Source: Mesaphorura yosii (taxonomy: Eukaryota > Arthropoda > Collembola > Poduromorpha > Tullbergiidae). From it: 64,000 nucleotides of DNA. A program made the position numbers and the translations under genes. The stretch covers positions 283,184-347,183 of the forward strand of contig WIXG01000037.1 in the NCBI GenBank assembly GCA_009869945.1, written 5' to 3'. The notes below the pieces were generated by a model, which ran no database searches, was not told where the DNA came from, and saw only the letters and a list, made by a program, of their open reading frames with translations. This document shows, one piece after another, positions 1,741 to 63,794 of the stretch; position 1 is the first letter of the stretch; each line of letters begins with the position of its first letter.

Positions 1741-4660
1741 ATGGATGTCAGGGATCCTATGTTGGATCCAAACTTTAAGACGCTCACATCAGATGAGTCG
1801 GACAACGATTTGCCGCCTAACGCTTCCAAAGATCGCAAACGAGGCAGCAAGTCGCATTCTCCTAAGAAGCACAAGAATAAACATCACCGACACCATAAGT
1901 CCAAAAGTAAAAAGAAGCGCAAGAAACACAGCAAGAGAAGTAGCTCGTCTTCGGAGGAGCAGTCGGGGTCAGAGTCAAATTCAGTAAGCACTCCTTCTCA
2001 CGTTTCATTCTTGTAGTCTCGGCATACGAAACAATATTTATCATCATTGTCTTCGTTGCAGGGAGAAGATGAATGGGTTGAAAAACAGTCAACTGAATCC
2101 ATAGTTCAAAAAGCTCCGAAGCAGGAGAAGACTTTGGAAATGACTATTCCTAAGGATGATGAGGATATGTTCAATCTTATTCCAACCTACTCGAATGATT
2201 CTAAGAAACAGAAAAGAAAAGATGAGAAGCGGGCTGATCGCGAGCTATCTTCCATCGATCGGGTAATTAGGCAGTAATATGCTTGCAGCAGTATAAATTC
2301 AGCAGGTAACTAGTAACCTAACGTTGTATCGATTTCGTGTCGTTTCAGGCCGGACTTCATGAACGCGAGCTCAATCCTTATTGGAAGGATGGCGGAAGCG
2401 GATTGCCCACAGAAGAGGGCCACCAGACTAGCCAGAGGCCCAGCTCATCTTCTGCAGTAGGCGACGGAGGGCTGAGCTGGCTGAAGAAATCATACCAAAG
2501 AGCAAAGGAACAAGCGGCAGAAGAGAAAAGAAGTTTAGAAGAAATTGCAGCGGAGCGTTGGGGGGTAAATCCAATCTTATCTGGCTAAATTAACTTGTAC
2601 TCTCACAGTCTTTGATTGTTCTCGTTCCAGTCGTTGAACAATTTCTTCTCGATGTTGGAAGAAGCAGAAAGGAAGGCTTCAAAGGGAAGCCACAGAGGCA
2701 GTGCGAGACGCGACAGAGATCGAGACGATGACAGACGCCACAGATCGTCATTCAGGAGGCCGGACCGTGATAGCGATGAGGAACGGAGTACCAGTAGGGA
2801 CTCTTCGTATTCGAGGTCACATAATCGCCAACCTGGTTGGAGGAAGCAAACCGCTGCGTCAGACACATTGCATGATGAACGAAAGAAGAGAGAGTTAACT
2901 CCAGAAGAATTAAAGAAAAGGTCGCGATCAAGATCACCATTTAGCCCACCAAAGCCAGAGGCAGTGGAAAAGACTGGTGATTTGGAATCTGAAGAGGATG
3001 AAGTCAAACCTGAAACTGAAGCTAAGGTTTTAACAGACCAAGAAATGAATGCGCTCAATGCGAAAATTATCAAGGCTGAACTAATGTCCAATACGGTAAT
3101 TTCAATTCAAATTGTTTCTTTCGTGTATTGCACTTTGCGCCTTGTAAATAATTACTATTGTCACATTTTATTAGGCGTTGGCGGCTGAACTGAAGAGTCA
3201 GCTTGAGAAGGCCAAGAAGGACAGAGAAGAATTTATTAAGACGGGTGGTAAACCAAATCGTGAGAAAAGAATTGTGACGAAGGTAATTATGGACAACCGT
3301 GGTGGAGGACGCCCGAAGAGAGATAAGCCAACGGAAACCCACAAAGATGGCCAACGAGTTCGATATTTTCCTGACGATGACAAGTACTCTTTGGCTAATA
3401 TGGTTAGTTCAGTTCATCATCCAACTGTCTACTCAAGCCCATTTCACCTTGATTTTATTTGATCTATTTCTTCGAATTTTAGTTTCAAAAGGAGAAGATG
3501 AATACTGTGGAGGACGAAAACGCTCTATTTTCGAGATTAGCGGGACAGGTAAGACCTCAGAAGAAAAGGGATTTTGCTTACGTTCGTAAAATTTGACTCA
3601 TCTGTATCCGATTTCACCTTGTAGAAAATGAAGCCAACCGAAGATTATGACATGGATGACATTTTTGCCGATAAAGCAAGTAGTTCCAAGAGCGTTCGCA
3701 AGGAGCAGGAAAGAGATATTCGAAAGGTGGTGGATGAAGAGAAGCAATACCAAAAGACTTTGGCTGATTGTAATTGGTGCTTTGAAGGGAAAATGCAAAA
3801 GAACATAGTGATTGCCATCGGTGAAAAGGTGAGTGAATCTCAGCTCGAATTTTTTCTTAATTCACTCAAACTCCCAAACTATTGTTCATTTGTAGAGCTT
3901 CCTTTGCGTACCTCCATTTCAATCTCTGACCGAAGGCCATTGCATGATAGTTCCAATGTTTCACTCAGCCTGTTCTACCGCAGTGGATGAGGATGTATGG
4001 GCAGAAATGCAAGTAAGTTCTCAGTTCCCTAGTTGCGGTCACAAAATAAAATGCATACATAAAAAGCAAATGCATGCTGAGGTAAAATTTGATAATATTT
4101 ACTTAATTCTTGCAGAAATTCAGACAAGCAGTTGTACGAATGTTTAGCGATAAAGACGAAGATGTCGTGGTCTTTGAAAATGCTGTTTGCCTGAAGAGTC
4201 ATCCACACATGTACATTGAATGCGTCCCGATGCCAAAGGAAATCGGTGAATTGGCTCCAATTTACTTTAAGGTTAGTCGAATCGATATTTCGACAAGCAA
4301 CTAAATAAGTTCGCGTTGTGCAAAACTTGAACATTTGGTTTGCAGAAAGCGATTCAGGAATGCGAGACTGAGTGGTCACAAAACAAGAAAGTAGTCGAGT
4401 TGCGCGGAAAGGATATCCGGAGAGGAGTTCCAAAAGGGCTGCCCTATTTCTGGGTTGATTTTGGAATGGACAGTGGATTTGCCCATGTCATAGAAGACGA
4501 AAAGTATTTCCCGAGGAATTTTGCACAGGAAATTATTGGAGGAATGTTGGAGCTGGATCATCACCTTTGGCGAAAACAGAAACAGGATGACTTCAATGCA
4601 CAGAAGAACAAAGTCATGGAGTTCCTCAAGATTTGGGAGCTGTATGACTGGACGCGGTAA
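1741..4660 (+). CDS. CWF19L2: CWF19-like protein 2 (CwfJ family splicing factor)
   Basis: Ten phase-0 exons: 1741-1983, 2062-2262, 2349-2564, 2631-3095, 3175-3402, 3483-3548, 3625-3828, 3896-4012, 4116-4271 and 4346-4660, giving 736 residues. The ATG at 1741 is the first in frame and has A at -3. The N-terminus is a Lys/Ser/His-rich RS-like tract. The middle carries the family block [10 protein letters not shown]...[12 protein letters not shown]. The C-terminus holds CwfJ_C_1 (about 515-632, with [16 protein letters not shown] and [13 protein letters not shown]) and CwfJ_C_2 (about 640-736, with [20 protein letters not shown]-like residues, [12 protein letters not shown] and a YDWTR end). The family acts in the nucleus in late (intron-lariat) spliceosomes. 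Introns are short, about 70-105 bp. The human protein is longer (about 890) mainly in its low-complexity N-terminus. Confidence 0.96.
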
Positions 4661-4986: not shown

Positions 4987-7900
4987 TTAGACATCGTAAC
5001 GAGCTGGAAGGGCAGTCTGTTGTTTGTGTTGTTTTAGAACAGCGTTTGAAACACAGTTTGGCGAGAAGGCGATCATCATGCTCTTGACTCTTGAACTCGT
5101 CGACGGTGTCAGGACGTAGTACTGCTCTGGGTTGGAACACATGACGGACTCTTCCACAGTCCTCATCGCGTACGGGGACAGAATTTCCACGGTTGGATCG
5201 TCTAGTGTGTCTTGCGCCTTGCGCTCATGCCCGAGTGCGTAGGCGTAGTCGTCATACTTTGCAAGCTTGCCTCCAGTAGCAGTTGGGTTTGGGAATTCGT
5301 TGATTCTAAAGAGGATGAAAGTAAAAATAAAAAAATTGTTTGGGAAGGAATAATGCGTGCACGAAGCGGCGAATCTCGATGAAATATATTTTGCTTCCCA
5401 TTCAGGCTATACTTCAGACTCCGTTTGAAAAATATAGAAATGATAGTCAAATCCATTCTTGTTAACCATATACTAAATCCTGTTCACATAATTGTTTTGA
5501 GTTGGGTCATTAATTAAATCCTGTGCAAATGGCTAACTAAGAACTACGTCAGCCTAGACTCTCCCGAAGCGCAATTATGTTAATTAGTTTCAAAAGGGTA
5601 AGCTCCATTGTGCGATAAGTTCCTGTATACCTCACTGGAAGATATTTTTTGACATCTCTACCTAATTAATGAACGTCTAGCAGAGTGGAGAAAGCAGGAA
5701 GTCCCCAGGCTTCCAAGAATTGATGCACTCCCTCACAGTTCTAAATGTTAATTAGCTCCGCGCTGCTTTCTTTGCTTGTGGCTCCCAAACCGAGGCCCAC
5801 ACCTGGTGTGCCAATGTTTTTACTACTCGACTCAGACTGGCTCGTGGCTCCTTTTGCTTTACGACAAGATACTACACGAGAGCACGAGAAAGATTTTGAA
5901 GGAGAAGACTAAAGACTACTTTATGATGCACTCTGCAGGAAACTTTGCCGACATAAAGCAGCTCGTGGATTAACAATAAAGATGAGGAAGAGATTCTCCT
6001 AATGCTAACTGCTACGCTGTACTGGTCTAGAAAGTAGGACAAATTAATAAACCCAGCGATAAAATCTCTCTCAGTTTCATGATACGATTTGGTGACACGA
6101 CGGGCGGGAGAAGACACGCGGAAGCCGATGCTGGGTTGGATAGGACCACAGCAGTAGCAGAGGAATTACTGTCATCTGCCAAGCAGAAGTAATAATCCCT
6201 TCATTCATTAAACTTCCCATTCTCAATTTTACTTCACTTCGCTCCTTGCAAGTATTTTGCTCGCAGATTTGATGAATTCATTAATCAACGTAGAGTGTCG
6301 GTCGCCAAATGTGGTAAAACCCTGACAAAGTTGCACATCTCACATACGCGGTATGCGGGTGGTCTAGGATTATAAAAACAAAGAATGTCGCATGCATTCG
6401 CTTCGCGACGACTGCAATAAAGAAATGGACCGTCTCTTCTTTCATTTCATCCCCCAGCATGCGAAGCAACAGCGAATCAATAAAGTCGTATTAAGTTTCG
6501 ACTGACTCCTGCACTAATTCCTTCCTTCAAGCCTTGCCGAAATCAACCATCAACCCCTCACGTAAATACCGCTTCTCAATTCCGACTTCGTAAATTGACA
6601 TAAAATTGGCGGACCAGCTTCTAGCATCATTACTCGTTTGTGGACGTGCTCGCTAATTCTGTTTGGCATCATAGTTGCCTACACTGCAAACCCGAGAAGA
6701 GAAGCAACTTCAACTACAACTTACGCATATGTGTGTTAAATTCTAAAATATGAAGTGGCGTTCTTATAGCTTATCATCAATATTCTAAGGCTCTTTACTT
6801 TTGTGCATAAAATGCATCTGGATGCAGGCAAATGACGGGCACTCCGTGGGGTTTCAGCTGTGCTCGGAGGCCAGCTGCTAGGCCTTCGGCCGCGAATCGT
6901 GCGGCGGTCCAGACTCCATGTGTGACACCAATCGCTCCAGTTCCCCAAACACGAAGACCCAGAGACATACCGTCGTCGGCTCCCAGAATGATCAACCGAC
7001 CTGCAATACAAGTGCAAGAGAAAAAATTGAAAGCTTGTATTAAGATATTTAGAACGACCATTCTCGCATGGCCCACCGCATGACATCATCTGAACCTATT
7101 TTGGTCATACAAGAAATTGCAATTAACTTTATACGACCACATTTACGAGTACGAGACCATTACGACCATTTGATTTTTAATAACGCTTTTAAGGTGTCTC
7201 ATAAAACGGCAGACGGCAAAAGCAAACCGCAAGTGCAGTGCCGTGCATTGCAGGTCGTGTCGTTTGCGCAATTACGCCATAATTATCTCAAAGAATGTAA
7301 TGAAATGATCAAATTCAGCAAACCCAACTTAATAGCCCGTCTTATCTCAAGTAAATTACTAAACGCCAGCGCAAAATCAAGAATGATCAAGACTATGATG
7401 AACTAATTCAGTTTCTGAATGGTTTGGGTTGGGTCGGCTCCGCGACTTCATTATTACGATTTCGACGTGTCTGCGCTGCGAAATGCGAAATGAATTACGA
7501 AAATAGCAGTACACGCAGCAACCATCAGTGGCAAGACGAATGTTTGTCTGCAAATGTAATTGTCGTTACTCTTGCTAATAAAATTGCTGGTGCGGGTGCC
7601 CATTGTCGATTTGCACTGCTTATAATTATAATGCAAGACACAAAGCGAGTGCACGTATGCAGGTACATGCGAAATAGTCAATGCCATTCTAATTTTGTCA
7701 TTTGGGTCATTGGTTGCGGTTTAGGCTCAGCACAGGTAATAAACCAACAATACGAATTGGTGATTGTGGTTAATGAGTTTCGAATACAACTGAGGATGCG
7801 AATAAGAATAGTATGTGTATATATTTATCTTTAGCTCCGGTTACAAATTGAAATTCGCCTTTTCAATTTCATTGCCGGTGGTGGTGGTGCTTCTTTCAAT

Positions 7901-18900: not shown

Positions 18901-19471
18901 AGCAGCTGCTAGTCAGCTTTTTCTCGGTTTGGTGCTTTAGTGTGACAATTACGAAACGATTACTTTAATTGGTGCAATTAAACGGTACGTGACCATTTTA
19001 ATTGCTAGTGGACTGGACATTCACTTGACCTTCGGATAAACTAAGCATATGTCTGTGTGTTTTCTTCAGTGCTTAATGGTTTAAGTAATTTTGAATGAGC
19101 TTGAATCCAGTTAAGTCCTGTCAACCGCACAGCGCACAGTTAATTAGTGAAATCTATTTTAGGATGTTCGAAAATGGTCGAATCTGCAATTCAATTCTGG
19201 TTTTCGGACTCCGTTGCTGCTTAACTCGCGTGACTGTGACTGATCTTCGTCTGAGATTTAGAATAATTGGATAATCAAGCAATTGACTGACATTATATTT
19301 GACAGATTTGTGAACGTCGACCGTACAATGGTGACTTAGCGCAAACCCAAAAATTTAAGCAAGAGCTGGAACCATTTTTAATGACGCAAAACTGAATTTA
19401 AAATCCTCAATCATTCTCACAACACTCATCGTTGTCTCTGTTTTACTACTTCTAACCCTTCACTGCTTCAG
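15942..19471. other. Intergenic region upstream of the synaptotagmin-14 first coding exon
   Basis: No supported gene. ATG ORF 16001-16270 and non-ATG ORFs near 16.5, 18.2 and 18.6 kb lack recognisable domains. It includes a short GATGC pentamer run near 16787-16803. Leader exons or the promoter of the synaptotagmin-14 gene probably lie here. Confidence 0.5.
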
Positions 19472-19826
19472 TAATCATCTTAATTTCACTCCATCCACCG
19501 CAGCCTCAGCCACCATTACAGATTCAGCCGCCACATCGAGCTCTTTCTTTCCTTCACAGATCTTTTCGTCTTTCATCGCTTTCCTGCGTTCCACCTTTTC
19601 TGATAACCTGAACCACCTCTTTGCTTCGAAGCATCTGGAAGATTTAGCCGTAATTGTGCCATCAGCACACAATCACTACAAGACAACTACGACTGTCTCA
19701 GCTTCTTCGATTCCTTCGCTAAACGAGAATTGTCAACCAAGGCACCACCACCAGAAATACGGTTCATCGCTCTCAGCCTTTGACGGAGAATGTTCAGAGG
19801 ATAACAATTTCATTTATCGCACAAAT
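19472..19826 (+). other. SYT14: Probable 5' UTR (or extended N-terminal) part of the first synaptotagmin-14 coding exon
   Basis: A strong 3' splice site (pyrimidine tract ending CACTGCTTCAG at 19471) opens an exon that ends at a GTAAGT donor after 19863. The frame of the downstream ATG (19827) is open back to a TAA at 19356-19358, 168 codons, but holds no earlier ATG. It is therefore either leader sequence or the second half of a longer N-terminus whose start is on an upstream exon. Confidence 0.45.
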
Positions 19827-22800
19827 ATGGTTGAAATACATGAAAATGGGGAAAATCTTAACTGTAAGTCACATTTTATTCTTTAAACATTTTAAAAAAT
19901 GAGACGAGGTGACAGTATTCACTGCTATTTTTGCGCCCACTTCATTTTTTGGGCATGATTGTAATAATACGGGTGCGTGATCGGGAGTAGCAGAGGCAGA
20001 GAATAAATTCCGCCATGTCTCTTCAGCTCAGGGCACGTTGGATACGACTTTTCACAGTTTTCGCCTGTCCTTCCTTTGAATGCCGATTCCTTGAGAAGCT
20101 TGAATAATGATTTGTTGGGTGTCCTATCGAGAATCTGCAGCATTTCGATTATTCCGTCCCTGAAAACGAGTTGGGATATGATAATATGAACTAGAATTAC
20201 AATTAGGCAGATCTAGAGAAGGTTCAGGTCAACTTACGTGATCTTCATTCCGAGAATTGTTCCACCAACTTCGACATTTTTGACAATCAGTTGATTCGTA
20301 CGACACACCTCTTGGAAGGTGCAGTTGACAGGAATCTTTCCGTTCCGAACGTGCGCCACAACATTCTAGGAAATGAATTGTGTCTCATTATCCCATTACG
20401 GTAAGAATCAATAGCTGCTTTATGCGCTTACAAGTGAAGGCAACACAGCCTGGGAGATGCTATCAATTGCTTCAGTCCCTGGTACAACGGCTGTATCATC
20501 CGGGCCAGTAACAGTAGAAGCATTGTCATCGACTGGAGACCTCTTTCTCCTTCCAGGAGCCATCGTTGTTGTTGTAGTAGTTGTAGTCGTCAGTGCGAGT
20601 AGTGCTAGCTACGAATTGTATTCAGTGTCCGGTTGACTCAAGAGGCATGAAAGAATTCTGTTTGTACCTGAAAGAGGGACAGTAATCCCAGCAAGCCAAG
20701 AAGTCCGAGTCCATCCGTGTTGACGGCACTTACTTTGTAATCTGTATGACTGGTGTGACTCGTGTGTCTGAAACGAACACAACAAACCTTTTAGACGCAC
20801 GATCTTAAAAGGTTTCTTATCAGTATTTGTAATGGATTAGCTGGTCAGCTAATTATAGAACTCTTACTTATGGCCTTTCCATCCTTTCCAACCCCAGCCT
20901 TTTCCATGGTGTTCATGCGAAGTTGCGGCCGCCACGGGCCCTGACGACCCGAAAGAATTACTGCCAGCCGCCAACAAGTCCTTTTCATTTTCAATCGCCA
21001 TCACTGATAAATTGTAGAAATTCTCAGATCGAGGCTGAAATAGAGTACAGCAAGCTCCAGTATTATGCAGTACTTACAAGAGTTGTACAGCGGAGCTCCT
21101 CCATAAGTGTATACATCAGTCACGTAATCTGGAAGTGATGAAGTTCGGAGTTTGCGAGCGCTGTACGTCAACTCTGAAACAAATTACCGTATAATTGAAC
21201 GACCAAGCTAGTGACCAGTGGCGTTTTCTTATCTTAAGGACACTTGTCAAGAGCTGAAGCAGGTTACTCGCGTACCTGGAGTATATCCATAATAATTCCC
21301 ATTGAAGTACTGCAGGTGTCGAGGTAAATATGAGCTGGCGTATGCTGAGCCGGGCGTCGAACTTACCGCTTGCTGATGCTGATGGTATTCATTGTATGAT
21401 GGAAGAAATACGCTTTTGGTTCCACTGCTTGATGGCGACCGATAAGACGAGTGATATCTGGAATTTGTGGCGTCTACGACATCGATATGACCTTCATGAT
21501 CGTGATCATGGTTGTCAGTGTTAACTTTAATGGAGTTTTGTAACTCATTGACGTTGGCATCGTCAATAATAGTTCCACTGATGCCTCTACTGCGTGCAAG
21601 GCCGTTGACAATTTTGTTTTTTTTTTCACAAATCACGTAGCTTTGAGAAATTATAACAGACAGGTACACAAAGACAAAAAGGAACATAGTTTGCTTGTTC
21701 TGGAATATGGAGAAGATTTCAGACGTGGACATGATGGATTGAAGTTTTGGGGAAAGAACATGTCCAAAGGTGCTAAAAGAAAAGCGAATGTCACAGATTG
21801 GATCATCAGACGCACGCTTTTATAGTGTTTGCAGCAACATTTCTGCTAGGAAACCCCAAAATTAGCAGATGCACGCAACCTTGAATCGGAAACCTCCCAA
21901 AACTTTTATTGAATCAGACGGGCAAAAATACGACCAATCAAGCACGAATATGAAGGTAGCTAACAGAGTTAACAAAGCCAAGACAGGAGCAACTGAAGCT
22001 TAATGTCTTCATTACTCGGTCGAAATGATTATCTCGGTTCAATTACTACTAAACAGCAGCAGTAACGATTACGGAAAGTACGCACTATTTTTGTACACCG
22101 CATGATTTCACGCTTCAATTGGATTTGCTCTCTTTGCCAAACTTAATTTTCTGCGAATGGTTGTAGTAATACGGGTGAGAAATTGGCAACAGAAGTGGCA
22201 GCGAGTAAAGTCCACCAGGCTTCCTCAGCGCACTGCAGGTTGGATAGTGTTTCTCGCAAGTTTCTCCCATTCTTCCCTTGAACGAAGCATCCTTCAATAG
22301 TTTTGCCAACGATTTGTCAGACGTTTTGTCGAGGAACTGCAGCATTTCAATGATGCCGTCTCTAAAATATGGATATGCAGCTTGCACGAGTTGTTTCATT
22401 TCCAAACCTTCATTGAGGGCAACGTGCAAGAACTTACGTGATCTTAATTCCGATAATTGCGCCTCCAACTTCGATGTTCTTAACAATCAGTTGATTCGTG
22501 CGACATACTTCTTGGAATGTGCAGTTTATGGGGATCTTGCCGTTTCGAGCATGAGCCACGACATTCTGAAATATTGTCATGAGAATGTGAACATAAATTA
22601 AGCTGGCGGAGATCGTTTCATTCTTACAAGAGAGGGAAGGACAATCCTTGAGATGCTGTCAATCGCGTCTGGGTCCGACTCAGAAACAACCACCGTGTCG
22701 TCCTGCGCTGCTGGGAAATAATCGGATACGGATCTCTTCCTCCTTCCTGGAGCTGGAGCCATCGTTGTTGTTGTTGTTGTTGTTGTAGTTGTCAACGCCA

Positions 22801-25800
22801 GCAGTGCAAGCTAAAATATTGTTGAGCCTTTCTAAATTGGACAATTTGTTCAGGCGCTAAAGTCAATCGTTCGTGTTTTATACCTGGAACAAAGACAGCA
22901 ATCCGAGGAGGCCGAGCAGTCCGAGTCCGTCAGTGTTGACGGCGCTTACTTTATAATCTGTGTGGCTGGTGTGACTCGTGTGCCTGAAAATCAGTAGCAA
23001 TATTTAGGAGGATCCTCAACGTATCTTAATGCGAACAAAAGTAGCAGTGCTCATTGCACTTCAAATTCTTACTTCTTCTTTCCTTTCTTCCAACCTTTTT
23101 TCCAGCCTTTTCCATGTCCATGTCCGAAATGTCCAAAGTCAGAATGGTCTTCCTCCGTGTCGGAATCCCACCCGTGCCCGTGTCCATGGTATGAACTGCC
23201 ACTCGATAGCAAGTCCTTTTCCTTCTCAATTGCTGTTACTATTTTTGTTAAGATCAGCATATTAGATGCATTTCATCTAACTTGTTATCGTTATCAGTGG
23301 CATTTGGCGACTTACGTGAATTGTAAAGAGGGGCTCCTCCATACGCTTCGCTGAGGTATTCTGGAATCGGCGAATATCGGAGCTGGCGCGCACTGTATGT
23401 CGACTCTGTAATGCATTGAATCGTCTATGGTGAAGGCCAAATCGTGGATGTGGTTTTAATATGCAATTTTTGCTATTAATTATTCCTTCCTTACCCGGCG
23501 AGTACGTATAACTGTGAGGATAATGAGAGCTGTAGAATTGTAAATGTTGAGGTAAATATGAGTTCAGCGGGCTGGGCGTCGGATTCAGGGCTGATTGATG
23601 CTGGTGCTGATATTCGTAGTAGGATGGTTGGAATACGCTGCTACCACCATTGCCAGTCATGATCAAGGGCGATGCGATTACTGATGAGAATTTGGAACTA
23701 GTGGAAGCGTGTGCGCTGTTTTCCGAGTCTGAATTAGTGCCATGACTGCCGCTTCCACTGCTAGATCCAGGATTGTGCTCGTTTTCTGTATTAATTTCTC
23801 GGCCACTGATACTCCGACTTTGTGCGAAATTGCTGATCGTTTTGCTTCCGCCGCCGCTCTTAACACAATTAACATCATTTTGGATGACTATTGAACACAG
23901 TAGCAGAATGTTTATTAGACGGGTCCCGTACCGCCGTTTGAAGTAAGAATGAAATGCAATGTTATACATTACTCAACGTAAAGTTCGAAGTGGAGCTCCA
24001 GTTTGGGGTTGCTAGACTAAACTGGGGAGCAGATTTGTCGATTTCGATCATTTATATAAGTTCTTAATCGAAACATGATTCGATTCTTCTTATCGTCAGC
24101 AACAACTTAGTATTTGCTGTTAGCACTGCTTCGCTCCTCAGTGTTTATTGGATCGGACATGCTCATGCTAACAATGAAGATGGTGTAAACGAAGATTGTT
24201 GTTTAGAGTAATCTTGCACATTTATTCCGGCTCATTTGTCCTTAATTTAACCACATACGCGTTTTGCTTGTGTGTATTTTGAACGTGCTCGGCCAATAGA
24301 AAACAAACCAAACCAGCTATCTCAATGGAGGAAGATACTCGAGTACGCGCCGATGTGCCACGCCAATTAGTCAACCATGCAGTTGTAGTTCAAGCAGCGA
24401 CGGCGGATGAAAAGCTGTGCCATTTTTGTGTCTCATTTCAGCACACAGCGGATAAAGAAGGCCACAGTCCAAGTCTGCAAGTCCGTTTTTTCTTGCCGCA
24501 TCGACTGACTTTATCAGGTCGTTGCTTGTGGTCTCCGATTCAGAAGCAGGAAGTGCGCCGTGTCGTTGGAGCAAAAGATCTCGTATCGCGTGACTGGGAG
24601 AAAGTAACAGTCGCATTGTTGGGCAATGGGGCTGCTTACTTCCGAAACAGAACTCTCAACTTACTTTTAGTGTGGAAAGCACTCACCTCATTTTCTCGGC
24701 AACATTCGTGCCCATCACACCGTACGCGCCGAGTTCCTTCTTTATGATCTTGTTTACAAAACACACTTGTCGCTGTGTGCAATTCAATGAAATTGTTCCT
24801 TGTCTCGCATGTGCGATTACATTCTTGAGATAAGGAAAAATTGCTCATTAATGGCAGGTCGAAATGCAGTGTTCGAAACGTTCTAGGTCGTACCAAGTAA
24901 GGGAGAACGAGACTTGTGAGCTGGTCAGTCTGCGCTTTGTGGCTGTGGACGCTATCGTAATCTGTGCCCTCATCTTCCGGTGTGTCTCGCTTACGCCGTC
25001 TTCCCGGCGCTGGAGCGGGCGCTGGAGCTGCTGTGGTAGCTCTGAAGGCTGCCAGAACTCCCTGTCGTAGTTAAAGACACCAGAAACATAACACGCTATT
25101 TTACTCTTATGGAACAAGCTTTCTTACCTGAAGAAGTGATAGCAGTCCAAGAAGTCCCAGCAATCCAAGACCTTTTTCGCCCAATCCATTATTTCCATGT
25201 CCGTGACCCCAGCTGGCAATTAAAAATTGAAATACGGTGCGTTACGGCACTTGTATCAAGATACAAACAAAAACAACAATAATTAACCTACCCGTGGTGA
25301 TGTTTTCCACCACCACCTCCTCCTCCGCCTGCTGCGGACATGTACATGTCAGAAACCGGAGAATCTATGCAGTAAACAAAGAAAATACCACGTTGTTAGA
25401 CGACGTCTGGCCACCCGCCCACTTTACATATGCTACGTGCACAGCCTCGTGCTCATTCATACAAGTTAATCTAGTCTAAACCTGCGTAATTTGTGGCCGC
25501 TGGTGAAAGATGAGCGTAGCTGTTCGTCATGGAGCTCGATGGATTATATTCTCTCGCAGTCCTTTCATACGGGTCTGTTCAAAGCAAATACAAAGTCAAC
25601 ATGGCATGCATAATTCGAATTCAGAATGAAATTCCGACGTAGTTTCGGTTTTGGTGGTGAATAGAACACGAAACTAATTGCTAAATCTGAATCGTACCAG
25701 CGATAATTGGATTAGCACCTCCATAGAGATAATTGCTATTGTATCGGTATGAATTGGATGAGGATGGGTACGAGCTGTATCCTCCAAGGCCGTAGTAGCC

Positions 25801-28800
25801 AGAATTGAGATTGCTGTACGAGGAGAACGATGACGCTGGATGTGGACCGATCATGGATGAGTGCGAATGCGATGGCGATATGGAACTCGAATGTGCCGAG
25901 TACTTTGGTTTCGAGCTGTGACGGTGTTCGGATCCGTGTTTTCCACCACCGCCGCCATTGTTGCTTATGCTGTTCAAGTCAAGGTCTTCTGGTGACGACG
26001 GGCTCAGTCCTTTCGCACCACACACTTCATGAACACTCAAAACCACAATCAACAACGGCACCGCTAATCCAGCTACCACAAATCTCTGCTTTGCAAGGCG
26101 AGTCATGGTTATTCCGATATGGCGTTCGTTATCCAATAAGTCTCCGATTTTAATATTTCCCAGACTTAATTATCCTATCCAGTCTCTTCTCTGTGGTCAA
26201 TACGGCTGAGTAAGACAATAATTATTTACTGCGACTGTGTCAGGCAAGTATTTAATTTTAGAACTAAAGGTCAGGGTTATGCAGACGAGAGGCTTTTATT
26301 GACTTTGGAGGAATCTAAATATATAAATAACAACAACGCAAGATAGTGGATCATTCTTGCTTGGGCTGGCATACATAATAAGCAATCATGCCTGCTGTAA
26401 CCTTATTATGTTATGTAAACTAAACACGGGAACAATGGAGCTTGCCTATCCTGTCAAAGCCTTCGAAGTGTGAAGAGTTCATATCGTTTCATTAGAAAAT
26501 CACACTCAATATCCAATATCCATCTTGTCAAATCTATTTTTAACACATTTCACTGCGTCTTTGCACTATTTGCTGTTTTTCAGCGTTCGTCACATGAAAA
26601 TTAAGCGAATGATTCCAATTTTACAATTTTACGGTGGCTTGTGCTCAGAATCCGGAAATTGGGACGATGCGTGTGATTCTGTGACAATCACATCTACTCG
26701 TGCGACAAATTCATGCCATGTCTCACCGTTTCCGTAAAGTCGTACGTACTTTAGCATTCTGATCCACATTATTTACACGAATCATCGTTACCTTGAACTC
26801 CATGTTGAATATTTGCAAGTGTATGCTTACAAGCAGGCTTGTGCCATAATTCTGTAGCGTTAATAACAATGGCAAATGGCACTGTGCTGTGTTAGTTCAC
26901 ACATGATTTAATTGCATTACTGAACTGGGGCCACGGCCATAGCTTGTAATTGTGCCGTTGCACTGTGACAAGAAACACCGTTCTGTACGTTTATCATGCT
27001 CCAATACACATATCGATTTTCGCAAGTGAACCGTTTCCGTGGGTCGCATTTTGACGTTGTTGTCTTGCTTCACGGCTTCACGTCTTCATGGGTTCGGCTT
27101 GCATTGGATCAGAGTCAGCGTTAATGCGAACAACATGCAATTTAAGAATTTAATCAAGTGTGCTATGACGAGTCTTAAAATTGTCATTTTGGCACTCAAG
27201 GCCATGAAAAATTAACGCTGCCCTCAGACGTTCAAAAGAAGATGTACTTTACTTCACGAGAAGATGAACACTTTGAATTGCTGTTCGTCGTGCTCATTTG
27301 TTCATTTACTCAGAAGTTTGTTAAAAATGGGAATGGCAGAACGGCAGTCCATGAACTCATTTCTCCCAACCCTATGTAATTAGTTTTTCGTTATATCATT
27401 AATTTCATTAATAGCGCTTAATTGTTTTGTTTTGCACTTTTCGCTTTTCGGTTCCAACTTCCAATTTAATTTTTGAGTGAAGACGCTCTTTCTCGACGAA
27501 TTCTTTCATCGTTAATTGGATCCTCATCTCACTTTAATTTATTTTTGTCTTAATGATGATATCTCGGATCTTCTTCAAGGTGCAGCAGCAATTCCAGTGA
27601 TAATTTGTTTAGCTCCTAAATGAATTTTCACGAAATTTTGATATTAAGCTATGCATATTCTGTTTCGCATTCAAATTCGCAATTTCAAGTGCCTTTGCTT
27701 TTGTATTTTGCGCGATACATTTATTAGAATGAATGGGAGCACCAGTTTTGTGCAGCCTGTTGACGTAATCACATAAAAGTAGATACCAATCTGCGTAAGT
27801 GTTGGAAGATGAAATAAAATTGTTATTGCGTATTTATATTTTATTGGCTTTTACCATTTTTGAGAAATGATTTAGGTACTAAAATGGAATTTTTATGAAG
27901 GCTATTATTATGATTTTGCTGCTCCTGCTGCTTCTGCCCTGCTTCGATCTCAAAGAAAACGAGCCGAGTGGTTGGCTCTGGCCTGGCCTACATGTGCCGT
28001 GCGGATGCTGGCTCAGTGTTTGTTGTGTGTATCGTTACACGGTACATTTAGCACGCGTCTACGGTTTGTGAAATGGAGTTTCAGTTTCGGCAATTTTATG
28101 CGAGTGATTTATTCATACTCGGTCATGCGTCTGGCTTTACTGCATTCGGGTTCCACAACCCTTACCGCCAATTTTAGAAGCTGCGTGCACTGGTGATCCA
28201 GATTCTTGAGATTCTAGGCCAAATCAAGAAGAAAGAATTGAAACATTTGACTCACGCATGATTTGGGTCGCCATTCAATCGAACTCAGAAATCCTGAATT
28301 GTAATTTTTTGGCCTTCTGTCAGTTTTCTGGCAGTCTTGCCTTGTAGAAGTCAATCATAATTATTCGCCCACCTGCTTTCCGTCCATGTAATGTTCATTT
28401 AGAAATGACATAATGACAAAGCCAAGGTTTAAAGTAGTAATTAAAATCCGCAAACTTTCTCTAAAGGTCGTGCTTATGATTCCTGCGAAGGGAACGCAGA
28501 GGCGAAAGGTTAAGCTGACTACAGCCACACATTCAATTTCCCTACAAGAAGAGTTAACAATCCCGTTAATGGGTTCTGTTTATTGGATACTTGCGAATTT
28601 TAATGTCACGCCCAAACTCCATTTTCCACGATGATCATAATATTAAAGTCCTTTATCATAATATGATACTAAAGACTGTAAAAGTGGTAATGCGAAACTT
28701 TTATTATTCACATTATTACTACATCTACTCGAATTTCCATTTCTCCTGCCCTTGTTGAAAGGTGAAAACAACGTAGCGCAGCTGAACTTAGTGCAGCCAG

Positions 28801-31800
28801 AATACTCTTACTCTGCCTGCCTTGCCTTGCATTGCCGTGTGATGAATATTGTACTCGTTTACCGTAACATTAACTCTACGGCGGTGTTACATATCTCATG
28901 AGACCTGAAGCCAGAGTCGAGAAAAGAGGACGCGTAGATATTCAAAAGCCACACAAAGGCACGAGTAATGAATGGGAAAGCTTTCAACTCCTTTTTAGAG
29001 TTAAAAATTTTAATGATGCCATGCCATGAAAGTAAACAGATAAATTTTCACTGTTGACTGTATTGTATCAATTTCATTTTTATAGTGTGGTATCAGGATA
29101 TTGTGATAATTATGCGCTTAGCGTTTGTTTGTGTAGGAAAGTTTTGGTCAATGAGATCGAAACTCAGATTTCGAGACTCTTTTGTCGAAATTTTGAACTG
29201 AACAATCACTTGCAGCTATTTGCCCAACAGTATTTTGTGAATAGGTTTCTGCAATTTTTAGGAGGTACTTTCCTTTCTTGTGACGTGGGCTCTTCGTGAA
29301 CCAGTCCATAATTTATGGCCCCTCGGGCTTTCGTCCCATGACCGTGCATGTTTGCATGGCTGGAACTCGAGACCCGGTCGTATAAATTAAGCTTATTGGT
29401 TATCTACCGTCGTAATAATGAAAGACTGCTCTTTTCCCCTTTTATTGACAGTTTAATAAACAAGACAGCACGTCAGCAATAATACTTGTGTCTATTTGCC
29501 ATGTAATTTATTTATAACATTAGTAACCTTTCGACAATTTTCGAGTTGGCTGTGAGGTAGGCTGCATAATTTACTGGGACGGATACTTTGCTCACTGAGG
29601 TCATCTATGCCATCTATGAAACATGAAAGGATGGCAGGGTAGACATAGGCGACGGTCTAGCATGCTTCTTGCCAATGACAGTGGGAGTGAAGACCAGAAG
29701 CTTACATTACGTAATAACGTATTATTGAAAAATTGGGTATCGGAAATGTAAACAACGCAGTCTCTTTGCTCTTCTGCTTTGCGTTGGTCGTTTGTTCGTT
29801 GTCGTTGACAATGCACTCACCACTCGTGGAAAATTCCTCTGCTCTCGTGAGCCGCACGTAACCCACTTCAGATTGCGAATTGGGATGTAATGACATTTCA
29901 CGAGCACTACTTGGCTAAGCCAAGCAGTTGATCTTGAAATGTAATTTCCTGCTTTCATGGCTGTGGCTCGTCCTTCTGATTTGCCCGGTCACTTCCGAAG
30001 ACCGAGCTTTGGGCTTTTTGGTACAGACTCAATTTGCATCCACATACTTCCTCTGTGCGAATTCGGGTAAACATTTTGTCGCCGGTTTACTTGATCGATA
30101 CGACTCATCGCCTGTCAGCAATTCAATTCGGCGTCTTTTTGCCAACGTAATGTAGGTCGAGCTACTTATTTCAGCGGGGCTCTAGAAAATTAGATTATCT
30201 TCACTACAATTCGAAATTCCTCATCACTATCGGCGAGAGTGTTTTGGCATCAGCATCGTTTCGTTTTTAAACTCGCACTCTGTTAAAAATATTGTCAAGT
30301 CGTCTTAAGCTATTTTATACGAAAATTAATAAATGAAATTACTCGCTAAAGTATTCCATTTTCTCGTGCAGATTACGTGTATCGCAGATTACTTTAATTC
30401 AATTGTTTTTTTTATTTTGTGTATTTCAGTTCCATTGGAAGCGACTGCATTCTTGGCAGCCGTCTCCGCATTTGCTGTGTTTCTCCTTGTGATATTTATG
30501 TACGTGAACAAGAAATGGCACCTTTTCAACATCAATGTCGGTAGTCCCGTCGCAACGCTCAGGGACATGGACGGGAACGGGATTGGCAACAGAAACGGAT
30601 CATCGTCACTGTACCCATCAGTCAAGTCGCTGCAGATGAACAATGTCAACTTGAAGAGTCAGAGTAAGTAAATAGAACGGGCTTATTTGCTATTTTTCTT
30701 GTGCATTTGCTCGTCTTTGTGCCATGCGTGCAGAGATCAGATTCCTGTCCTCCAGGCTCAGATTGCTTGTTTCTACCATTTCTATTCTCTGCGGACACCA
30801 GCGTGTCGTTTTCGGCCGTCTGGGCTTTCTTTTAATTGCTTACGTCTCTTAATGAGATAGTGGCTGGACTCTCAGAGCACTAACCTCGTAACCTTGAGGC
30901 TAACGCAAAAACACGCGTCGAAACGAAATGAAATGACAGCAAGCTATCATTCACCTAAATCGCGCTTGCCGCGTGTTCAATAATCCCAAGAGGACGCGTA
31001 CACGCGAAAGCAATTTAGTCGCTAATTAAATTAAAAACGGAATGCTTTTCCAACAAAGATCTTTAATTTCGCAAATGGCAATGGATTAGAGCATTGACAG
31101 TCACTTCAATGTCACAGTACAGGAGCAAGGCAGTGAGCCCAATGTCGATAATGAATGAAATGACGTCCACAAGTTCATAGAGTTTGCGTTGTAATTATGA
31201 TAATTACCATAATCGACGCCGATACTGATCAGTCACAGTATGCAGCCCGAAATGTCCCTTGATACCTGTAAACCATGCAATTATGGCCATGGCGTAGGCA
31301 CAGGCACGGGCACGGGCACGGGCACAAATGTGAAAAAGATGCTATTGATTTTCTCTCAAGCCAAGGGCAACTGTTGTGTAGAATTACTTAAGCCGGTAGC
31401 AGTAACTGTAGTGGGCAATGTAAGTACTTTCTAAATGTCTTACATACATTCCACAGGTGAAAGCTACTCAATCCCATCACCTGACAACAGCTCCGACAGT
31501 GAGGAAGATGTGCTCCGGCGTCTCCGGAGCATGAACATTAACGGCAACGTCGGCAGTAGCAACAATAACAATGGGAATGTGAGCATTATACAACAACAGC
31601 AACAGACTTCCACTTCGTACGTGGTCCACCACAATCTTCAGCAGCATCAGCATCCACATTCGCTACACAGCCAGACAACGTCTTCCTCCGTCTCTGTCCC
31701 CATGCACGGGTTCAACTCTTCGTTTGACTCTCGCGAAGGCTCTCCGTCGAGAAGCCACAACCACCACTCGCATCCACACGCGCACCAACACCACGTGCTC

Positions 31801-34800
31801 CATCACCAGCCGCTTTCAGTCCACCTGAGTGGCAGTCCGGCACGATCGGCCGAAGGTCGACGCAAGCTGCAGATGCTCCACCAGCAGAGGAGTTTGGATT
31901 TGGACTACATGATGGGCGGTGGTGGTGGCGGAATAGGCGGGATGTCAAACTCAAACTCGTCGCCGTCAAGATCTCATCAATTGCTGCAGTCTCACTACAA
32001 CAATCCAATTCTGCCGCCACATGCACATGGGCACAATCCGATGAACAGGTCGTCATCTGCACACTCGCACTACAGCGCCCCACCGCAGATTGGCGGAGGT
32101 GGCGGCTACGGCACGGGATCACACATGATGGGAAGGAGACCACTTAGAGTGACCACGATCAGAGACATTGACGATGGGGCCAGCGTGGGGTCGAGCAATG
32201 GAAGCAGGCGCCGGTCACACCATCAGAAAGGTAAGTGCATTTTCGTTTTCCATTTGCTTAATGCATACGCGTCTAGATTCAAGTTCAGGCTCACCGTTGC
32301 AGAACCGTGACCACCAAACTTTGAAAAACGCTCATGCCTTTCTTCGCTTTCTGGTTCTGAAATCCAGAGTCTTGAAAATTGTGAGGAAAAACTTTTGCTG
32401 CCTGTCGCAACTCGCGATTGCTTTTACAGTTTTCACCAGAGTTTTGAACTGAATTAAAACTTTTATATTCATTGTACGGGTCGGCGCGGGCGCGGGCGCC
32501 AAACTCCGAAATTCCTAATTGAGATTAACGGGCAACAAAAGTAGCTGAATAAGAGAAGCGATGATTAAACCATGGCTTAGCACTTTTCCCTTTTCCTTTC
32601 CCGTGCCCGCTTTGTTCAAGTTCAAGGCTAGTACAAACCCACTTGGCTCAATGCGAACCGATGCATTGCAAAAATACAATGGAAATGGTCTTTAATTGCT
32701 TTTCCTTCACATTGAAAGTCGAATCGCAGCTCAAGGTCAGAATGGACATGTACTTTGCGAGAAATTGTGAGCAAAGTCTTGGGCTGCATGGTTAATTGAA
32801 AGCCATTACAATTAAAACTCAATTACTGACACGCTATGATTGGGCAGAACTCATCTGGCAGTTCAAATATTTTGCTCAACCAGTAATGGAATTAATTTCG
32901 GTCCAACGAACAAGAAGCTGGACGAAATGGGAAATGAAAGTAAACCAATTACACAGACACGATTAATCCGGACAGGAACATTGCGAAATGCGAAATCTGA
33001 CTGGCACAATGAATGCTTAATTAACTCGATGCCGAGTCGAGCTGCGTAAACTAGTTTCAGTTTCTAGTTGATGGGAAACCGCACAAGGTCCAATTAAACG
33101 AAATTACGTGGCATCCTACAAGAGAACATTCGATCCGATGCGAAATGTGAAAAGCGAGTTATAAACGGCAATGGCAAAAGGCAATGGAAAATAGCTTCAA
33201 TAACTTTAACTTGCACACCGTAAAATCGATAACTGCTGCAAATGCAAAAGCAAATGCTGCGGTTCGAAGTGCAGAATTCAAATGACCGTCAGACATGCAG
33301 AGCAACAAAGTAAATCTACAGAGGAGTTTTGTTTTTGCCATATGCCACTCATTAAACGTATGTTTGGGCTCAGACTTAACGAAGCACGAAGCCCACGTCA
33401 CTTTTATTTTACTTTGTGTGCTTTGCAATTAAAAGGGTCCAATGCCCTTATTTCGTTTTTCGTAATGAAAACTTGGCTTACTCGGGACAGAGACAGAGAA
33501 AAGGCTTAACTTTTAGAGCTTTCGTTTGGTTTTTCTTTCTGTTTTGTTTTGCACGTTCGTTTTTCGTGATAGTGATTCCAATCGAGTCGTAGTTCAAGTG
33601 CCAGGCATGAGAGAGATCAATAACACATCACGTAACATCGCGTCTTAACATTTTTGCAACTTCTCTTTGCTCTGGAATAAGAATTGAAAGCAGTCTTGCC
33701 TTGAGTACGAGGAGCATCCTCGTTGAGCATTTTGCCATTTTGCACAACACACTTTTCAAACGAATGCGAATGTCTACGGCCTGGAGGTAGAATAGCGATA
33801 TTAGTTTCCAGCCTCGCTCGTATTTAATTTAAATTCCCATTCCACAGCCTTCATGACGCGACGGTACCTGGTGAGACGAGGCGATGGGCGATGAATTCAT
33901 GCATTCAATAAATAATCCGATCATGCGCTAAGCGCGTAACGCTTAACGCCTGGCTGTGGATGGGAAGAAATATTTCGCATTTCGCTCCTTGTCTTGAAAG
34001 AATTCACGAACTCAACGTCCTCATTCTGTTATTCGGTGCTTGCTTTCTCCGTGAGACTGCTAGTCTTAAGCACTAAGCACTTTGCAGCAACGAACATTTT
34101 GAATGAAAGTTTCTGGAAAATGTAGGATGTGCGAAACCTGCCAGCGATAAATACATTCGCACATGTGTGAATGACGTTCATTTCTCTCTTGTGTGGAACT
34201 GCTCAGGGTTTTGATGACATGGAACCAGCTACAAGCTTAGGATTTCGTGCGTCTCGCGCCTGTTGTAAAAAGTATTTCTCTTTTGATCCTGGAGCTTTTC
34301 ATATTTTATAAAACTTGTTTCTTTTATTATTATTTCCTTTTTCATGCTTCGTGTTTCATCTTCTCACTTGCTTTCTTTTCTTTTTTCCGTTTACTATTAC
34401 GCCCGTGATTCTTTTTTCGTGTCTGCTTGGATTTTCTGGGAATCGGTGCCTACTATGCCTGGAACTTTAATCTCTTATATGCTACTAGTTGCCAAGGAGA
34501 TGGTCGGACGAAGAAGCTTGATTACGTGACAGTTAGCCATATGCTCTATATCTGCAGCCGCAGTCGCACTGCGGGTCGAAGCCGCTGCGCTGAAATTCGG
34601 GACTAGGTCAATACGTCCGCGGTTTCACTCCGGAACGGTGACTCCGTCATTGAGTAATAAAAATGATTGATTCAGAGAAAGGATACAAAACGAAACGAGC
34701 ACCCGTCCGCGAACGCGAAGAGCCTGAGAGCACGGCATGAGCCATGAATAATAAGTAAGTCAAGTTAAACTCACGCCAAGCCAAGGCAGTCTGAGTGAAA

Positions 34801-51837: not shown

Positions 51838-54800
51838 CTACTTCTTCCCGGAAGAAAGCGTCATACTTGCATGATGACCAGGAAGGGAAGAGTTTCTACT
51901 ACTTTTTTCTTTGCCCGGGATGATTCCAGCAGTCACAGTCGCAGACGCATTCGCGACTGGAGTGTGCATAAGACTCGAGTGATCGATGGCCGCACTTCCA
52001 GACTTGCCTTCCTTCGTGTGTCTCCACTTCATCCTTCGGTTCTGGAACCACACTTTGACCTTGATAAATAAATACGTACAGAAATGTTAAATTATAGCTT
52101 TAGGATGCTGCAAATCTGCGGCGTATGAAAAAGCCTGCATACTTGAGCATCCGTGAGTCCTAACATGGCAGCCAGCTGTCTTCGATCGGGCTTCGTGATG
52201 TACTTCTGCATCTGAAATCGCTTCTCCAGCCCCTTTCGCTGCAAGTTGGAGAATACGGCTCTGGACCACGAGCGTTTTCTTCGTCCGCCCCCATTCGTGT
52301 TGCAGGAGACCATTGACGACATGGACGCGTAGTTGGACGCTCCAAGGCCGTAGGAAGTCGGCAGATTCGAGTGACCGAAACCTGAAAACCAATAAATTGC
52401 GAAAATTGCACATGAATTGAAATCTTTTGGCTGAAGAAGCCATTTCTACCTAGAATAAACAAACTTCAAGCCACAATCATAAAATTTATGACGTGCACTT
52501 CCTCTCATTTTGTATTTTGTTCTTTGTCCTTTCATTTGAATAGTCATTCGTTTATTTATGCGATCGTCTTTGGAGGTCTTGTTTCGCCATATTTGCGATT
52601 GCGACTTCATTGAAACTTATTAGTCGCCTACAAGGAGCCCCTGCCACATTTATCAGAATATTTATTGCAAAAGAAGCACATAAATCGTACATCGCACGTG
52701 TTATGATCAAGTCTCAATTCGTGAAATTCAGCCTGCGCTCTTCATTCTGTTTTCTGCAAGTCGTCATTGATTTCTTGTGGTAGATTTTATGAGTCAATTT
52801 TATGTCTGCATTCTCTTGTAAATATTTATATTATGTTAATTCATCATTTTACGAACTCTGTACGACTATATCGCGAAAGGACCACACACTTTTATACAAT
52901 CGTTCATTTCATCAGTTTGTCAGTACAAAAAATAGTTGAACCATATTCGTAAAGTAAAGGATTATTGATAATCGCGTTAAATTGGAACGCAGATAAATAT
53001 GAACACGATGTGTGAACACTCGATGCAAAATATCTCAAGCTTGTTAACACTTCATGCCTGGCTTTATCTTTGAAAAATTTAAAGGCAAGGCTTGTTTTAC
53101 TTAAACTTTAATGATTGACTTTGGTAAGTATTTTTTGTTTTTGTTGATGTGTTGATAATTAAACGCGAAGCCAGAAGAAACTTCGCTGCTGCAAAGTACT
53201 TGAGAGGATGTATAATCCAGAGACGATGACAGATATTAAGCGTACGTAGGAAAAGAATTGAATCATTGTTTCGAGCGTGCGTGTTTTGATTTAGGATATA
53301 ATAATATTGTACTTTAGTACCGTTACAAATTCACACTTGTAGGATTCCCTCAATTGACTATTTATGGTCTCGACTTATGACATACAATTTCAATAGACCA
53401 TTTAGTTTTTACCAATACAATGAATTGAAATTATCCGGAGATTCTGCTGAAGTTCATAGAAATTGTAATTTGATACGTACGCCTTGCAACTTGTAAGAAA
53501 CATGGACACAAGCGAATTTCAATTCCAAGGACTTAATATACAAGCTGATGACGAATTTCTGGCCACATCGTACTTAATTTCATGAAATCATTACGCTGTT
53601 CAGTATGACTCGCCACTGCCACGAAATAGAGAATCACGCTAAATAAAAGACTGTACAAGAGCTTGAGCATAATATAAGGAAAGTCATAAATTTCATTGTA
53701 ATTTCTTATTTCATTTCATTCGGTTCATTAATGTGGTGAGATGAAGAATGATACATGGCTTCATACAAAACGCTTACAACGGACAAGAAATGAGTTCTCA
53801 GACGGCAATGGTAGAACAAATCTGAAGTATTTTAATGCTTTAGCGTTAAACCACAATAAATCAATCTCTTCATTTGTTTACTCGAAGAAAAAGGAGAATA
53901 GCATGAAGAAAGGAAACATAAAAGAATTATGTGGGCAAGATCCATATGAAATCGACTCAGAAGCAAACAGCAAATGTTACATCTCTCGAAATACGACCCA
54001 TGAATCATCTCATGAAATACGAACGTATACGGAGCACACGAAGCTTTGGCTAAGATGAAGAGGACCACCCGAGTGCATTAGAACAGATTCTTCACACTAT
54101 ATGGTGTCCCTGTCAAAATCACTTTAGTTTTAGTAAGGATGAAAATGAAAATAATGTGATTCCTTTCCTTGGCTCAGCGCACATAAATTAACCATATTAT
54201 GATTACGCGATTATTACCAACATTAGAGCTACGAACGGATTACTAAAAAGGAAATCTTTAAAATGCTGTGTTGGATCACAGTACAGCACCTCGTCACAAT
54301 CTGACGGAGATGGTGTGATGATGAAATCTCAAATCTTTTAACTAGTCAAATGATAATCAGGCTGTCAAATTAATCGTATGCGCCTTATTAATGCATTTCC
54401 GTGTGGCATGCTCGCCTTCAGCCTTCAACGTGAATTAGCATATGATTTATTTACTTCAGATTTCAGATGAGGTTTTATGGTCAATAAAAGCTAGCACTCG
54501 GGAGTTGGCTTACCATTAGAAGGAATTAATGTGGGGCCATCGTACAGACTTGATGACGGATGAGATTTATGATGCTGGAGCCAAGGTGAAGTCAGTCCGG
54601 AGCCCGTAAAAATGGGACCGTAGCCACCTGCAGCGTAGCTCGACGTTGGGAGCGTTGACGTTGGCACCGGCATCGGTCTTCCGTCAGAAAATTGGAGCTT
54701 GTATCCGAATTTGGCGAGCAGAACGCATTCCGGACAGTTTCTGGGTATCGGACTGCAAGCTGACGCACCCCCACCGGCTGTTAACGCGTGCTGGTGTTGG

Positions 54801-61989: not shown

Positions 61990-63290
61990 CTAATTGAAAG
62001 TCTTCAGAAAGACGATGACATGGTTCGTGAGATGATGTAGCATTACAAGCACCGTAGACGGTTCCATTCTGCAAATCCCGGCGTACGCGTAGTACGCGGG
62101 CGGGTGGGAACGCAGTACTCGTCGATAGTACGCCTTCTCTTCCGCGTCACTCAGTCCGGCCCTGACTCCCGTCTCCCAGTCAGCCAGAAACTCACGCAGT
62201 CGCATTTCCAGTGTCGCCTGATTGGTATGGCTGAGGATGTACGCGATGGTCGAGAGCACATTCGCGACAAACAGGAGCAGAGCGAAGGGATTGAGATCTG
62301 CGTAGAACTCGATGCAGGAGTAGAGGCACGACCAGCATATAAACATCGCGAACGTAGTGAAGACGCAGTGAAACCCAGCACACGCCTCGTTGTACCGGCC
62401 GTAGAATTGGCGGACCCGAGTGCTGAGCCCAAGAGCCGCGTCCAGTCGCTGACGCAACACAGATTCCCCACGAAAATTCTCTGACCGCTGCACGTCCGCC
62501 AAGTACGTATTGTACGAAGACGCCTGCAATCCAAGCGCCAACCCGGTGTGCATCGTGTTATGTTGCACGATCGTCGCGAACCGGTTGCCCCAGTCAGGCA
62601 CCATCATGAACGTCTCGTATACGGTAAACAGAGCACACTTCATCGAGAGTCGATCGACAGACTCGCCCTCCGCCAGCATGTAGCCGTACATGTGTTGCGG
62701 GTAGTCCGGGAATGCGAGGAAGAATGCACAGATGCCAATCGCACTCGAAATCCAGCCGTTGAACAGCGCCGTGCATGCAAACCTTTCCACGTCCCTTCGC
62801 CAACGATCGAAGAACTCCGGTTTTGTCTCTGTTAACGTAGCCGAGTTTTTACGCATTTATTCCATATTTTGCAATTCGGTGCCGACCACTCAGGAAGCTT
62901 ACCCAAGTACGCCCGGTGCAGGCTCAAGTATTGGCGTTGAAGGGATTGCAAAGCATCTTTCTCGAGGGCACGGTGTATAAGCGCGGCGGAGGCTGCACTC
63001 GTCCCGAAAACCCATGCGCTCTGAATTGCAATCAACATTGGCTCACGCCCGCGAGCGATAGAGTTGAGGAGCAGCACGTACTGGCTAGCTGTGTACCACA
63101 GAAGATAGCTTCCAGTGAACCGGTACCACCATCTCAGGAACCCACGCTTCTGTGTTTGGATCTGGCCACCAAGGAATCTGTACGGGTACACGCCGGTCTT
63201 AGACACGATGTTGCAGAAGTGGAGGAGAAGCTGATCCGTGGACAACTTTGCGTGTTTTGCAAACACGTTTCGAGGGAGGCAGCGAGCCAT
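61990..63290 (-). CDS. Seven-transmembrane gustatory/odorant-receptor-like protein
   Basis: Two exons, 63290-62903 and 62828-61990 (74-nt intron, phase 1), give 408 residues, the usual length of insect-type chemoreceptors. The ATG at 63290 (MARCLPRNVF) is the first in frame after a stop. Hydrophobic segments are spread along the protein, for example GSYLLWYTASQYVLLLNSIA, AIQSAWVFGTSAASAALI, ALFNGWISSAIGICAFFLAF, CALFTVYETFMMV, HCVFTTFAMFICWSCLYSCI and LNPFALLLFVANVLSTIAYI. The C-terminal segment VLVMLHHLTNHVIVFLKTFN occupies the place of the TYhhhhhQF signature of gustatory receptors, in degenerate form. Expected to be a plasma-membrane ligand-gated channel subunit in sensory cells; the ligand is unknown. 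The assignment rests on architecture and the tail rather than close identity. GC content is clearly higher than in the flanks. Confidence 0.75.
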
Positions 63291-63794
63291 GAGTCCGTCA
63301 AGCGAATTTGTCAGTGTCAAATGCCAATGCACATATGGACAAAAGTTTCACCCTGACCTTGGTTTGTCTTGATTCTACGCATAAAAATTTCAAAGCCAAT
63401 TTCGGCACAATCGAATTTCGAGCTTAATTAAAAGAGGTGTGTCGTGGTTGCATTGAATTCTGGACCGCCAACAATTTTAAGGGACAATGTTAATTAGCAG
63501 ATTCACAATAGCCTCACGTATGCATCATGTATTTCACAGCTTGGACAATGCACTAATTTTAGACTGTATGCGTGCGTATTGGGCATTGGCAATCAGTTGG
63601 AGAATTGTAGGCGTAATTTGCACAAAAATGAATTTCCAAGAGATGAGCGACAAGTCAATATTTTATTGTTCTCAGTTCTTAGTTTGACCATTAGAATTAA
63701 CGATGGTTATTTGAAGTAATTATTTCAAGAACAATGGAAATATTACCACTGAACTTGCTCACCATGTGCGCCTTTTAAAAAAATCAGTCTTACG
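63291..63794. other. Upstream of the chemoreceptor gene
   Basis: AT-rich, no gene seen. ORF 63487-63687 is featureless. Confidence 0.5.

Follow-up and report, generated by a model that had tools for sequence, protein, structure and literature searches.

What kind of protein is encoded by three adjacent genes whose products match no named family well and combine fast-evolving sequence with a hydrophobic motif that does not change? This question is raised by a cluster on the minus strand of a 64,000-nucleotide stretch of DNA from the collembolan Mesaphorura yosii (contig WIXG01000037.1, positions 283,184 to 347,183), hereafter called the window, in which positions are counted from the first letter. 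The three genes, named A, B, and C, are true paralogues, related beyond chance. Judged from sequence, they may encode furin-cleaved secreted structural or matrix precursors, perhaps with a divergent DM4/DM12-like tail, a reading that is put forward tentatively, as possible rather than probable. As a type of locus, a secreted low-complexity protein duplicated in tandem is ordinary. What makes it of interest is a hydrophobic motif shared unchanged by all three genes, a possible DM4/DM12 link, and a family without a good match to any named one; it also offers a testable case of a rapidly evolving, apparently secreted protein family in which some modules are frozen.

Three tandem paralogues with uneven conservation

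In the spliced models, gene A occupies 24371–26106 (exons 26106–25698, 25574–25482, 25364–25292, 25212–25128, 25061–24894, 24823–24687, and 24593–24371) and encodes 395 amino acids. Gene B, with 462 amino acids, lies at 22115–23969 (exons 23969–23495, 23405–23316, 23238–23073, 22983–22884, 22810–22628, 22565–22438, and 22361–22115), and gene C, with 442, at 19925–21732 (exons 21732–21276, 21173–21078, 21003–20868, 20767–20668, 20608–20432, 20365–20238, and 20159–19925). All are on the minus strand. Each of the rebuilt models has seven exons with intron phases 1,1,2,0,0,2, and GT...AG borders are found in all 18 introns; as the junctions were picked by eye for GT/AG and frame, the agreement of borders and phases expresses consistency and is not an independent test. 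Taken from the model ends, the spacers measure 382 and 401 bp. The rebuilt models thereby reproduce the coordinates, strand, spacers, exon number, and phases given by a first-pass annotation made from the sequence alone. Its lengths of 442 and 462 residues for C and B stand, while the 410 residues it gave for A become 395 with the same start and end. Outside the cluster, tblastn of the three proteins against the whole window found no match at E up to 1.

The description of the genes as tandem paralogues, also part of that annotation, is confirmed by the region after the RRKR motif, whose alignment scores of 149 (A–B), 148 (A–C), and 569 (B–C) are far above the maxima of 57, 54, and 50 reached in 1000 shuffles per pair. 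The BLASTP E-values of 7e-29 (A–B), 1e-30 (A–C), and 2e-162 (B–C) were obtained with neither low-complexity masking nor composition correction, and they are flattered by the low-complexity part of the proteins, so that the region after RRKR is the fairer test.

B and C are old duplicates near synonymous saturation, because the synonymous divergence (dS, NG86) exceeds 1 in exons 2, 4, 5, and 6 and cannot be estimated in exons 1, 3, and 7, and because their introns share only 54–64% ungapped identity; at this divergence, two-sequence NG86 estimates are rough. Conservation of the proteins is uneven, with 55/149, 20/30, 23/45, 33/33, 40/56, 37/43, and 53/77 identical residues in exons 1–7 of B and C. 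In exon 4, all residues are the same even though 17 of 100 nucleotides differ (dS 1.25). Such a pattern requires selection on the protein, and it supports the exon models and their frames. The nonsynonymous divergence (dN) of 0.026 returned by NG86 for exon 4 despite zero residue changes is taken for an artefact of how the method handles multi-step codon changes. In gene A, exon 4 is identical at 16/26 positions with either B or C, exon 6 at 18/43 (B) and 17/43 (C), and the strongly diverged exon 7 at 17/64 (B) and 15/61 (C). Exon 4, which carries a Leu/Gly-rich segment, is thus the best-conserved exon both between B and C and across all three genes. Overall, the B–C pattern would fit a bulk region under loose constraint in which functional pieces are held fixed.

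Shared architecture of the predicted proteins

The same order of elements recurs in all three proteins: a hydrophobic N-terminus, a variable region containing Ser, Gly, Tyr, and His, the block GLGLLGLLGLLSL(F/L)Q, a linker, RRKR, and a C-terminal four-Cys domain. The N-terminal hydropathy peaks reach 2.27 (A), 1.71 (B), and 2.12 (C), and signal peptides were judged from hydropathy alone. The following region contains 14–22% Ser, 8–16% Gly, 6.5–9% Tyr, and about 7–8% His, with Asn also frequent.

The longest block that is invariant in A, B, and C is GLGLLGLLGLLSL, followed by F or L and then by Q. It belongs to exon 4, which in A (25128–25212, from the spliced model and exon comparison) encodes a His/Gly segment and GLGLLGLLGLLSLLQ. 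In B (22884–22983), exon comparison reveals a His segment and GLGLLGLLGLLSLFQ, identical at the protein level to the His segment and Leu/Gly hydrophobic segment of C (20668–20767). Over 19-residue windows, the Leu/Gly core peaks at a hydropathy of 2.1 in A and 2.25 in B and C, and the core itself contains no charged residue.

The linker and RRKR are encoded by exon 5, as seen in the spliced models and by motif search. In A (24894–25061), the linker is rich in Ala and Pro and RRKR occurs in the context GRRRKRD; B (22628–22810) and C (20432–20608) have a Thr tract instead. Each protein has a single R-x-[K/R]-R site, which is RRKR in every case. Exons 6–7 of A (24371–24823), B (22115–22565), and C (19925–20365) encode the four-Cys domain and a C-terminal tail; the four cysteines are spaced C-x5-C...C-x6-C in all three proteins, and an NCT sequon overlaps the first of them (Cys1). 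An AlphaFold model of exon 7, built from the three aligned exon peptides, is mostly helical and of low confidence (mean pLDDT 51, pTM 0.28). RRKR, a four-Cys domain after it, and a Leu-rich hydrophobic stretch had all been named in the first-pass annotation; RRKR, the four cysteines, and a Leu-rich hydropathy peak are present in all three proteins.

Searches for a known family

Against Pfam, none of the full-length proteins matched a family at the cut-off; the best matches were unrelated ones at E 0.05–0.14, and B had none. PDB sequence searches gave nothing better than E 0.24. Relatives of A, B, and C were not recognised in the literature, with subscription journals and supplements outside the scope of the search, and no paper was found for stretches of the Leu/Gly motif. 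Scans against Rfam, at its gathering threshold, and for tRNAs found nothing. The viral and prokaryote contig scans returned 226 and 37 pattern matches, of which tblastn confirmed none, as expected for the wrong kingdoms. Within these searches, which did not extend to animal genomes, the earlier view of an unrecognised family is upheld, and a profile search of the four-Cys C-terminal domain likewise gave no confident match to a characterised family.

The one recurrent sub-threshold match is DM4_12 (DM4/DM12, PF07841), found for C and more weakly for B, against a Pfam gathering cut-off of 22 bits. For C, all three trims of the C-terminal region matched, with 15.1, 15.7, and 14.7 bits, and the exon-7 half alone scored 15.6. 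For B, one of two trims matched with 13.5 bits (E 0.12), tied with an unrelated peptidase family at the same E, and the longer trim did not. A gave no match, either at full length or in any trim or half tried, and the full-length proteins B and C did not match the profile either. A hand-made consensus of the domain reached 16.8 bits. In the 103- and 88-residue trims of C, the match spans Cys1–Cys4 and runs to the last profile position, as it does in the 88-residue trim of B. When the domain was shuffled with its cysteines fixed, DM4/DM12 was among the matches of none of nine shuffles.

Proposed secreted matrix precursors and the alternatives

According to the preferred reading, the hydrophobic N-terminus would send the chain into the secretory pathway, where a furin-type protease would cut after RRKR. 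The C-terminal domain, presumably disulfide-bonded and glycosylated, probably helical, and perhaps of a divergent DM4/DM12-like fold, would prevent the hydrophobic N-terminal part from coming out of solution before release, acting as a folding or solubility module that is removed at RRKR. The N-terminal part could then assemble via the invariant Leu/Gly segment while the bulk region can vary freely, and its His/Tyr-containing stretches would hold it in an extracellular layer, for example cuticle, eggshell, or silk. That all three proteins have an NCT sequon at Cys1 argues for a luminal C-terminal domain. A more far-reaching proposal, regarded as quite improbable, is that of a new secreted assembly family in which the invariant GLL-repeat segment polymerises and the cleavable four-Cys domain is a built-in chaperone, following the logic of silk terminal domains with an independent origin.

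Several observations weigh against secreted precursors with a DM4/DM12-like tail. The DM4_12 match is below the Pfam cut-off in every run and missing for A and for one trim of B, and in the longest (120-residue) trim of C it covers only residues 46–85, without Cys1–Cys2. Two of the nine Cys-fixed shuffles gave E 0.003 and 0.021 with unrelated families, compared with E 0.011–0.12 for DM4_12. Since shuffled sequences can thus equal or surpass these E-values with families that have no relation to the domain, membership is not established, and DM4/DM12 is best treated as a lead, not as an assignment. Moreover, the mean pLDDT of the exon-7 fold model is only 51. The His content of A, B, and C is at the low end of the 6–45% range that PMC8062583 gives for lepidopteran scale proteins. 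Finally, the Leu/Gly segment might cross a membrane, and PMC12825958 terms DM4_12 transmembrane in a table note.

The last point leads to the somewhat unlikely alternative that A, B, and C are single-pass membrane proteins, in which the Leu/Gly segment would be a transmembrane helix, the Ser/His/Tyr region would lie outside, and RRKR would serve as a positive-inside anchor and not as a protease site. The strongly conserved segment comprises about 20 hydrophobic residues with a hydropathy of 2.1–2.25, as high as that of the N-terminal peaks (1.71–2.27), and the clustered Osiris proteins, described together with the DM4_12 label in PMC12825958, have a transmembrane region. However, this topology would place the four-Cys domain, with its conserved NCT sequon, and the Thr tract on the cytosolic side; sequon and Thr tract together speak for a C-terminal domain in the lumen and against a membrane-spanning model, though they do not prove it. 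In addition, the stretch before the segment is itself rich in Lys and His in B and C, so that the positive-inside rule is indecisive.

RRKR also precedes the most domain-like conserved part of the proteins, as would be expected of prohormones or growth-factor-like ligands whose four-Cys domain is freed as a signal by cleavage, with the N-terminal half as propeptide. The Cys spacing would permit two disulfides, and the region before RRKR evolves fast. This model, considered unlikely, is weakened because the most conserved exon, that of the Leu/Gly segment with its 33/33 residues shared by B and C, sits in the supposed propeptide. Furthermore, no hormone family was among the Pfam or PDB sequence matches, and exon 7 of A is strongly diverged. 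Leu/Gly-rich membrane-active peptides are known, and the invariance of the segment could likewise suit a defensive secretion in which it inserts into foreign membranes. This is held to be very improbable, as the single R-x-[K/R]-R of each protein leaves no such site to free the segment as a short peptide, and the Leu/Gly core lacks charge.

Transcription signals and the rest of the window

A, B, and C are likely transcribed separately. On the minus strand, AATAAA occurs as a candidate poly-A signal after C (19875–19880), between B and C for B (21905–21910), and between A and B for A (24221–24226), where a second copy lies at 24144–24149; the hexamer is common in the window, with 131 matches seen against 77.7 expected. 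Pattern matches to a TATA-like box are found on the same strand upstream of the ATG of C (21817–21824) and of B (24049–24058), and none was found on the minus strand just upstream of A. The window as a whole has 22 such matches where 18.6 are expected, which is no enrichment.

Converging on gene C, an open frame of 175 codons with a hydrophobic segment near its start lies on the plus strand at 19359–19886. It matches no Pfam family at E up to 0.01, and its crude codon score is below threshold. This score measures codon usage and was trained on A, B, and C themselves; by it, the coding-like stretches closest to the cluster lie at 31447–32271 (plus) and 5002–5301 (minus). The former is a large Gln/His/Ser-rich stretch with the top codon score of the window, and its frame is without Pfam match at E up to 0.01. 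Pfam scans of the flanks, with stops read as X, covered four of twelve frames (three plus frames of 26.1–41.1 kb and one minus frame of 5.0–19.98 kb) and gave no match at E up to 0.01.

Of ten open frames from the window that were compared with Pfam, two gave a match at E up to 0.01. A homeodomain exon is located at 52092–52445 on the minus strand (E 2.5e-10) and resembles the H2.0/HLX type. At 47919–48344 (plus), there is a sub-threshold match to C2. Two adjoining hydrophobic open frames of 288 and 171 codons at 61990–63347 (minus) might form one multi-pass receptor, perhaps gustatory-like; against Pfam, one of them gave E 0.12 or worse and the other nothing. On the plus strand, an Arg/Ser-rich frame and the frames following it (2616–3990) resemble a CWF19-type splicing factor; the two of these frames that were compared with Pfam gave nothing at E up to 0.01.

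Comparison with known systems

According to PMC8062583, films can be formed by cross-linking the His-rich cuticular proteins of Lepidoptera. With those of the scales, A, B, and C have in common a raised His content and, as inferred for A, B, and C, secretion. They differ in that no cuticle-protein domain is among their Pfam matches and in that they possess a hydrophobic core, RRKR, and a Cys domain.

A second comparison is with the Osiris proteins, which PMC12825958 describes as products of clustered genes with a signal peptide and a transmembrane region, known from insects only. The genes studied here are clustered too. The hydropathy peaks of their products lie at the N-terminus and in the Leu/Gly segment. 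In contrast to Osiris proteins, DUF1676 (PF07898) is absent from the matches of full-length A, B, and C at E up to 10, a negative to be read with the fact that the HMMER filters drop most matches above E of about 0.1. The AQXLAY motif near the C-terminus is missing in all three, and no N-terminal Cys pair is common to A, B, and C. Osiris membership is rejected, as neither DUF1676 nor AQXLAY was found in them. The same source reports that two planthopper Osiris proteins carry DM4_12 as well, and that knockdown of these genes altered the ovipositor (Osiris17) or the forewings (Osiris24). Both these knockdown effects and the cuticle films are parallels by analogy.

The nearest Pfam family, below the cut-off, is DM4/DM12 itself. 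In its text, PMC12825958 describes DM4_12 as a motif of unknown function with four conserved cysteines, unlike its own table note, which terms it a transmembrane domain. All three proteins have a C-terminal four-Cys domain with C-x5-C and C-x6-C, while the scores of 13.5–16.8 bits, the highest from the hand-made consensus, fall short of the cut-off of 22, and A gave no match. If the domain is DM4/DM12-like, its association with RRKR and a fixed Leu/Gly segment would provide a way into a domain whose function is, on that account, unknown.

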